64,000 nt of DNA from Methanosarcinaceae archaeon. Its GTDB lineage: Archaea; Halobacteriota; Methanosarcinia; Methanosarcinales; Methanosarcinaceae. Numbering within the stretch: the stretch's first letter is position 1; each line of letters starts with the position of its first letter. Location of the stretch: contig JAUWQD010000001.1 in assembly GCA_030611265.1 (NCBI GenBank), positions 1 through 64,000 on the forward strand, written 5' to 3'. Shown piece by piece: positions 250-36,272 of this stretch. A program made the translations under genes and the position numbers. The notes beneath the pieces are model-generated. The model was not told where the DNA came from. It searched no databases and saw only the letters and a program-made list of their open reading frames with translations.

Positions 250-509
250 CAGACACGGATTAACACCGATTTACACGGATTTGGACTTATGATGGTGATA
301 ATGCAACCTCAAAATCCGTGTTCATCCGTGTAAATCTGTGTCTTATTAATTTGTTTTCAGACACGGATTAACACCGATTTACACGGATTTGGACTTATGA
401 TGGTGATAATGCAACCTCAAAATCCGTGTTCATCCGTGAAATCCGTGTTCATCCGTGAAATCCGTGTCTTAATATTTTATCATTTCAGACACAGATTAAC
501 ACCGATTTA
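250..509. repeat. ACACGGATT-type inverted repeats, two and a half units
   Basis: Unit 250-343 runs from CAGACACGGATTAACACCG to a complementary right arm ending in GTGTCT, so it can fold into a long hairpin. Unit 358-469 is nearly identical but has an extra tandem 18-mer (AAATCCGTGTTCATCCGTG) in its right arm. A left half-unit follows at 486-509 and runs into the 3' end of the GxxExxY gene. A degenerate copy lies beyond the other end of that gene. Confidence 0.9.
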
Positions 510-536
510 TTATTAATTGGGATTGGTTTGAAATTC

Positions 537-917
537 TCAAATTTGTTTATCCATTACACGGCGTTTTACTTGTACAGATGTTCCGAAATTAATCAAAAGT
601 CCAACTTCAATTCCTGTTGCCTTAAGATAGTTCACAAGCTGAACCTCATGGATATCAGACAAATCTTTCACAGCTTTGATTTCAACTATCACCTTATCGT
701 CTACTACAACATCAGCAAAATAATTACCAACGATTTCACCATTGTACAACACTTTAATAGGCTTCTCAATATCGACTTTGAAATCCAATGAACGCAATTC
801 AATAGCAAGCGAATTTTGGTAAACCTTCTCCAAAAAACCATGTCCAAGAGTATTGTGTACATTATAAGATGCTCCAATAATCTTCTCCGTAATATTGTGA
901 TATTTCAAATCAGTCAT
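537..917 (-). CDS. GxxExxY family protein
   Basis: This protein of 126 residues has the family's defining stretch GHGFLEKVYQNSLAIEL near residue 25, and a PD-(D/E)XK-like core with a buried Asp followed by VIVEIKAV, then VQLVNYLKATG. GxxExxY proteins are small and of unknown function, and the E-x-K resembles nuclease-fold enzymes. The ATG at 917 is preferred over the GTG at 926 because AGGTGG sits 5-6 bases before it. Closely related repeats flank it on both sides (250-509 and 941-1012), suggesting that gene and repeats travel together. It lies between rmlD and rmlA, which are otherwise expected to be contiguous. Confidence 0.85.
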   Translation of the reverse strand: MTDLKYHNITEKIIGASYNVHNTLGHGFLEKVYQNSLAIELRSLDFKVDIEKPIKVLYNGEIVGNYFADVVVDDKVIVEIKAVKDLSDIHEVQLVNYLKATGIEVGLLINFGTSVQVKRRVMDKQI

Positions 918-940
918 AATAACCACCTGCTTTTTTACAT

Positions 941-1012
941 TTCAGAAATATATTTACACAGATTTTTGTTTGAGATGTTGATAGTCAACCTCAAAGTCGT
1001 GTTCATCCGTTT
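941..1012. repeat. Degenerate copy of the ACACGGATT repeat
   Basis: The stretch keeps TTCAGA, TTACACAGATTT, a run matching GATAATGCAACCTCAAA and GTGTTCATCCGT in the same order as the units at 250-469, but with many substitutions. It closes the repeat-bounded GxxExxY segment on its right. Confidence 0.7.
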
Positions 1013-1091
1013 CTTTAAGTTTTTTAGATGCTGATTAAAACCAATACAGCCTTAAATCAGAGTTCTACGATTCATCGATATTCAAGGTGTC

Positions 1092-32928: not shown

Positions 32929-33006
32929 TCACCGCAGAGAACGCCGAGGGCGCAGAGTTGTTAATTGGTTTGCAACTCCCCTCTGCGCTCTCTGCGTGCT
33001 CTGCGG
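32929..33006. repeat. CACCGCAGAG-type inverted repeat
   Basis: CACCGCAGAGAACGCCGAGG and GCGCAGAG face CTCTGCGCTCTCTGCG and CTCTGCGG around a short AT-rich loop. It is a hairpin of the kind very common between genes in environmental genomes. It is a different family from the ACACGGATT repeats. Confidence 0.85.
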
Positions 33007-35739: not shown

Positions 35740-35929
35740 TTGTTGGTAACGTTGTCACAAAAATATTCGCGCGCTGATGGGCAACTCATTCCACTTAAAT
35801 TATGCCGGCCAAGCATGCCCTATATACGTATATCCTGTCCATTAATTCAGGCAATGCCATTCCATGTTTGACGATATATCCTGAATAGTGATCATGTGTC
35901 ATCGCTTAAGAGTAATATTGTGATAGAAC
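35740..35929. other. Intergenic stretch after acs
   Basis: No gene or clear signal was seen apart from TATA-like runs near 35820-35835; the repeats described next follow. Confidence 0.5.
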
Positions 35930-36015
35930 ACGGATTGCACGGATGACACGGATGCGCGCGGATACGAAAATAAATCCGTGAAAATCCGCCTAATCCGTGT
36001 CATCTGTGTTCTATT
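35930..36015. repeat. ACACGGATT-type inverted repeat
   Basis: GAACACGGATTGCACGGATG at the left faces TAATCCGTGTCATCTGTGTT at the right, with AAATCCGTGAAAATCCGCC between. It is of the same family as the units at 250-509, but no GxxExxY gene lies next to it here. Confidence 0.85.
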
Positions 36016-36177: not shown

Positions 36178-36272
36178 ATATGACCGCCACAGAGTACACA
36201 GAGGGCACAGAGAAATGATTTGAGGCTGTGGAAAAGGTCACTCTGTGTCCTCTGTGCTCTCTGTGGCAAATA
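36178..36272. repeat. CACAGAG-type inverted repeat
   Basis: CCGCCACAGAGTACACAGAG and GGCACAGAG face CTCTGTGTCCTCTGTGCTCT and CTGTGGC. It is related in style to 32929-33006 but with a different core. The spurious frames read across it are products of the repeat. Confidence 0.85.

Follow-up and report, generated by a model that had tools for sequence, protein, structure and literature searches.

Systems in which many short palindromes are dispersed through a genome that holds one or a few cognate nuclease genes are exemplified by REP/REPIN sequences and their RAYT genes (TnpA-REP). RAYT genes are flanked by palindromes, gene-less palindromes are far commoner, and the RAYT protein is a tyrosine nuclease of the HUH (Y1) type. 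Homing-endonuclease introns are a second point of reference; their insertion protects the site from cutting. Here we describe a small gene, annotated GxxExxY, that stands among hairpin repeats in a 64,000-nucleotide stretch of DNA from a Methanosarcinaceae archaeon (hereafter the window), and we compare this locus with related loci in Archaea and Bacteria.

The GxxExxY gene in the rmlD–rmlA gap

The 5' part of rmlA, presumably encoding glucose-1-phosphate thymidylyltransferase as its family suggests, was read as an ORF at positions 2–151 on the minus strand (start codon at 149–151), and rmlD (dTDP-4-dehydrorhamnose reductase) occupied 1256–2074 on the same strand. The GxxExxY segment therefore lies in the rmlD–rmlA gap, where a first-pass annotation of this DNA had placed it. 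The gene (537–926, minus strand) encodes a PDDEXK_3 protein of 129 amino acids from a GTG start at 926, with an alternative ATG at 917. Two intact hairpins stood beside it, downstream of the stop codon. Hairpin A (251–343) had 35-nt arms (251–285 and 309–343) that were 83% complementary and held three ACACNGATTN decamers each. Hairpin B (359–469) was a tandem, near-identical copy of A at a shift of 108 nt (99% identity over 88 nt), its right arm extended by a 19-nt unit. A half-arm of two decamers, ACACAGATTA and ACACCGATTT, followed at 485–509, 27 bp past the GxxExxY stop codon, and a degenerate hairpin was found upstream of the start codon at 934–1014 (positions 952–1010 matched the hairpin query at 80%); these two are the candidate downstream and upstream arms of a gene-bearing element. 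An additional degenerate half-arm at 1019–1064 resembled the remnant in a gene-less orthologous gap of a congener (locus L241; blastn, 88% for window positions 1014–1038). The first-pass annotation had the gene flanked on both sides by one repeat family. This was correct for hairpins A and B, the half-arm and the hairpin at 934–1014, but the gene's own arms were degenerate (spanning score of 12, not significant alone) and the intact hairpins lay to one side of the gene.

The hairpin arms consisted of ACACNGATTN decamers repeated at 10-bp spacing. Allowing at most one mismatch, the window contained 12 occurrences of ACACNGATTNANAC, with 1.6 expected, and none of 100 shuffles reached 12; genome-wide, the exact decamer pattern was found 39 times and its reversed control 0 times. 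The family also occurred alone in the window, as had been noted before, in a solo hairpin at 35926–36015 (ATAGAACACGGATT...) of the same motif class as the rml-gap hairpins. A further solo hairpin at 36185–36268, which lies 170 bp from this solo ACACGGATT hairpin, belonged to the CACAGAG class, that of this genome's GxxExxY paralog C90 and its relatives. A second cluster of CRCRGAG units was seen at 32933–32999. Elsewhere in the same genome (L068 and L066), hairpins of different classes clustered within the same intergenic regions, and stretches with several hairpin classes (ACACGGATT, ACGCAGATT) were repeated ~700 bp apart (L068, 1300–2250; L066, 1400–2100).

The congener G006, which has two relatives of the window's rmlD (73–74% identical), had two rmlD–rmlA gaps, and both were without a GxxExxY gene. 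One gap (L242) contained a single solo hairpin and the other (L241) a degenerate half only. The GxxExxY gene nearest to that of the window (L097, 83% identical) was located elsewhere in G006. Because the gaps of G006 are gene-less and the gap in the window holds the gene, gene presence at the rml site is variable within the genus.

The window protein matched TIGR04256 (GxxExxY; 141.9 bits, cut-off 35) and PF13366 (PDDEXK_3; 140.3 bits, cut-off 22) over their full length, and a sequence search against solved structures matched it to no chain. Using a structure model (pLDDT 92.6), Foldseek gave SSO0001 (Cas4; E = 2e-4), LHK-Exo/lambda exonuclease (8e-4) and Hjc (0.02) as the nearest solved folds, with modest global TM-scores of 0.4–0.55 by query length. 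Catalytic-type residues E33, D72 and E82 were invariant in 52 sequences, and K84, Q96 and Y100 were nearly so. As modelled, the protein has a PD-(D/E)XK fold with intact catalytic-type residues and is a predicted nuclease. Values of dN/dS among within-genome GxxExxY copies (0.04–0.13) indicated purifying selection, and the window gene gave 0.12 against its nearest relative, L097; we therefore concluded that the protein is used. In the portion of the literature covered, GxxExxY was mentioned as an annotation only, with no role assigned.

Recurrence of the gene between inverted arms

The first-pass annotation had suggested that the gene and its hairpins spread as a unit, and the association recurred in other genomes. 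As a score we took the best inverted match that the 250 nt before a gene made with the 250 nt after it. The comparison comprised 77 GxxExxY loci spread over many phyla. Inverted repeats joining both gene flanks scored at least 20 in 49% of them and at least 14 in 73%; the corresponding rates were 0.8% and 5.8% for control ORFs on the same contigs (n = 633) and 0% and 13% for same-size archaeal PIN genes (n = 30). The 61 archaeal loci, which include several copies per genome, reached these scores in 61% and 82% of cases. A strict, motif-blind scan found gene-spanning arms at ~30 of 80 GTDB loci; the GTDB loci were chosen by similarity to the query, so the rates apply to that part of the family.

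Spanning arms were placed with one just before the start codon and an inverted one just after the stop codon. That is, an intact element comprised a left arm of 3–4 tandem ~10-bp repeats with ATAGRAC or TTTAGCC at its outer end, one GxxExxY gene, and an inverted right arm. The left arm was also recognizable in translation: continued beyond the start codon in the upstream direction, the reading frame yielded its repeats as peptides (e.g., TTEDTEGTE and PQRAQRAQR). In relatives from the same order, CACAGAG, CGCAGAG, CGCAAAG, ACAGGAT and CACGAAT stood beside GxxExxY genes, again as inverted arms with units 9–11 bp apart. The idea of a spreading unit is strengthened by the association across phyla, by the gene-less congener gap and by the clade-linked motifs described below, but it has to be amended in that the gene sits between the arms and not merely beside them. 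Well-preserved copies hold the gene in the loop, with the ~10-bp tandem repeats immediately beyond its start and stop codons, which makes gene-bearing copies the candidates for the autonomous form. The earlier description of a non-autonomous element accordingly fits the solo hairpins and not the copies with a gene.

Own arms were clearly more alike than others in the GAT class (mean 21.3 versus 11.7). A stronger statement, that own arms are always each other's best match, was dropped: they ranked top in just 13 of 46 cases. A search of 50,697 phage records for carriage of the gene gave 0 matches, and IMG/VR gave one, without arms. Plasmid copies were present in six records; the two that we inspected had weak arms (scores of 12–13).

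The source of the window is a metagenome-assembled genome with 3.6% estimated contamination, and some copies lie at contig ends, so we considered whether chance, assembly error or contamination had produced the pattern. We regard this as highly improbable: the same architecture occurred in complete genomes, in isolates and in other phyla, and the controls were strong.

Elements were often located directly 3' of a co-directional gene, as at the rml locus; in 33 of 45 cases a co-directional ORF ended between −40 and +60 of the element's left end. Such a position would suit hairpins that act as RNA, as sites where operon transcripts are processed or terminated; the protein would then be an RNA-directed factor comparable to that of the intervening sequences (IVS) of 23S rRNA, and IVS-type four-helix genes do share the layout. 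This explanation seems very unlikely to us. Arm mismatches compatible with G-U pairing were not in excess (71 sense versus 76 antisense), the window matched no Rfam family, and the nearest folds are those of DNA nucleases. We rejected selection at the RNA level on account of the missing G-U asymmetry and the missing Rfam match.

The four-helix-bundle genes form a parallel case. Orphan archaeal genes of PF05635 (23S_rRNA_IVP) were seen between inverted arrays of 7–8-bp tandem repeats (L319–L348), with units such as GGGCTAA, TAGCTSA, TAGCCAC and CAGAAGT (e.g., L329, L332, L324 and L346). Their flank-to-flank score was at least 20 in 30% and at least 14 in 60% of loci (n = 20); the window's own genome had no PF05635 match. 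Because PF05635 genes are packaged alike, the packaging is not tied to the nuclease fold, and the architecture can exist without a nuclease.

Arm motifs, gene-less hairpins and element ends

The arm motifs fell into the classes CRCNGAT, ACAGGAT, CRCRGAG and others. Of 134 distinct proteins, 105 had an assignable class and were placed on a tree. Motif class changed 11 times on this tree, compared with 38–45 times in 200 shuffles; because related elements inherit gene and arms together, the 11 changes are not a count of independent events. The same was seen within archaea (9 changes, at least 23 in shuffles) and within bacteria (4 changes, at least 7 in shuffles). Much of this signal could arise simply because gene and arms have a common history. 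The window's genome has three GxxExxY genes, and these paralogs carry CRCNGAT, ACAGGAT and CRCAGAG, each grouping with same-motif proteins elsewhere. In the ACAGGAT clade (support 99), four bacterial loci grouped with those of the window's genome and of a congener. We concluded from the grouping of the paralogs and from this archaeal-bacterial clade that the motif goes with the protein rather than with the host, and, since the paralogs use different repeat motifs, that the ACACGGATT family is one among several.

Gene-less hairpins outnumbered gene-bearing copies in the genomes compared, which answers the question of relative numbers that the first-pass annotation had raised. In the complete genome G076 (2,957,635 bp, one contig), one element type was present in 3 gene-bearing copies (90–96% identical) and ~50 gene-less copies, the latter formed by two ~165-nt arms around a short loop. 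A second type in this genome had two gene-bearing copies whose flanks were unrelated and which shared 98.8% identity over 641 bp. In G000, the ratio of hairpins to gene was ~25:1 within the ACACGGATT family. Genome G292 (1,804,962 bp) contained five gene-bearing copies with three arm types and dozens of solo hairpins; among its relatives, solo hairpins were many in G246, G200 and G325, and almost none of that type occurred in G174 and G251. At L236 in G246, a CGCGAATC-type element was nested within a further inverted repeat, TTCGATTTCGTGTAC...GTACACGAAATCGAA, and solo copies in the genus of G246 combined differing outer ends.

A detectable intact gene is not required for hairpins to be present or to persist. 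Scoring gene presence as a GxxExxY match at E ≤ 1e-25, we found at least 10 exact CRCNGAT double units in 12 of 31 archaeal genomes with the gene and in 12 of 265 without it (Fisher p = 2e-7); the latter twelve thus hold many CRCNGAT arms and no intact GxxExxY gene. Counts of 79–282 double units were observed in G138, G243, G220 and other archaeal genomes with no match at this threshold.

The ends of the copies differed between groups. Near-identical solo copies in G076 (L248–L274) had ISL3-like ends (GRYTCTT...AAGARYC) and seven 8-bp AT-rich target duplications; a DDE transposase could therefore have spread those copies. Genome G067, of the same family as G076, encodes ISL3 transposases with GGCTCTTC ends, and a composite in G076 may owe its spread to a transposase of the ISL3 type. 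Extending this to all loci, the hairpins would be palindromic or MITE-like elements in their own right that owe their spread to ordinary transposases, and the GxxExxY protein would be a passenger, or a processing or regulatory factor, between the arms. The four-helix-bundle genes in similar cassettes agree with such an account. We nevertheless judge it unlikely, because the simple elements had different ends and no duplication, a PF01610 search for an ISL3 transposase found no match in G000, G076, G292 or G246, and arm motif class tracks the nuclease clade across domains.

Simple bacterial elements ended in ATAGRAC, TTTAGCC or TTGACAGG. We looked for target duplications at simple elements and found none, so that insertion is not directly readable from them; a search for a clean empty site with exact junctions likewise returned none. 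In a candidate empty site shared by G292 and G325, the flanks were found but the gap contained other variable DNA, which confounds the comparison. Absence of target duplication is compatible with homing, in which the nuclease would cut an intact solo hairpin (a palindrome capable of forming a cruciform), repair from a gene-bearing copy would place the gene in the loop, and the separated arms would protect the site. The position of the gene exactly between the arms, the same-family arms of gene-bearing and solo copies, a fold near Hjc, Cas4 and lambda exonuclease, and an rmlD–rmlA gap occupied by a solo hairpin at one locus of the congener and by the gene in the window could all be read this way. 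Even so, we hold homing to be distinctly unlikely, for it leaves the spread of solo hairpins unexplained, and the vast excess of solo hairpins over gene-bearing copies per genome is not expected of sites that are efficiently cut and converted.

A proposed element family and its nearest described systems

We favor, by a modest balance of probability, the explanation that the rml-gap segment is a partly decayed gene-bearing mobile hairpin element accompanied by gene-less copies of the same family, and that the nuclease recognizes its own arms. The PD-(D/E)XK protein would bind the arm repeats through its clade-specific motif; the repeats are one helical turn apart and therefore would lie on one face of the DNA. 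Its cut might fall at the ends of the element or at the hairpin once this is extruded, after which repair would copy or move the element into small gaps at gene 3' ends, with no target duplication. Solo hairpins would have arisen by internal deletion; a nuclease with the right specificity would mobilize them in trans, or they would be remnants. Motif binding, cutting and movement by the GxxExxY protein are inferred, while the architecture and its recurrence across phyla, the co-segregation of motif and protein, the surplus of solo copies, the selection on the gene and the gene-less orthologous gaps were observed directly.

More tentatively, and with somewhat more doubt than belief, we propose that these loci represent a hitherto undescribed class of selfish elements, widespread among Bacteria and Archaea, which encode only a ~125-aa nuclease resembling Cas4 and lambda exonuclease; the DNA specificity of this nuclease would have co-diversified with arm arrays of helical-turn spacing. 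Genes in inverted arrays would then make up a larger class, with these elements as one branch and the four-helix-bundle genes with their 7–8-bp arrays as another. The GxxExxY hairpin element family has apparently not been described before; a literature search found no description of the arm repeats. A common orphan annotation hereby gains a genomic context and a testable role, and several dispersed hairpin families of archaea and bacteria are explained as one kind of element. Furthermore, the natural pairs of protein and motif offer material for studying changes of DNA specificity in a small PD-(D/E)XK nuclease.

The elements share some features with several known systems and differ from each in others. 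As in REP/RAYT, palindromes far outnumber nuclease genes (~50:3 in G076, ~25:1 in G000), but the gene matches PDDEXK_3 only and its product has a predicted PD-(D/E)XK fold instead of HUH, and the arms are ~10-bp tandem arrays whose motif class varies with protein clade. Insertion sequences and their MITE derivatives (e.g., ISL3) likewise consist of one gene between terminal inverted repeats, which are degenerate at the window copy, together with many gene-less deleted derivatives; unlike a DDE insertion sequence, the element has a PD-(D/E)XK gene as its single gene and no DDE transposase. Target duplication gives a divided picture, being absent at simple elements and 8 bp long at the G076 solo copies. 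The 23S rRNA IVS also places a small gene inside an inverted-repeat stem, as do the orphan archaeal PF05635 cassettes. However, the protein here belongs to PF13366 and is unrelated, the site is rmlD–rmlA and not rRNA, and the arm period is 9–11 bp as opposed to 7–8 bp in the PF05635 cassettes. PD-(D/E)XK homing endonucleases resemble these elements in that a small nuclease gene interrupts a site with no target duplication, but here there is no intron or intein, the flanks are inverted arrays, and very many solo sites remain. Lastly, compared with Cas4, lambda exonuclease, LHK-Exo and Hjc, whose solved folds are closest to its model, the GxxExxY protein is compact at 129 amino acids and without accessory domains.
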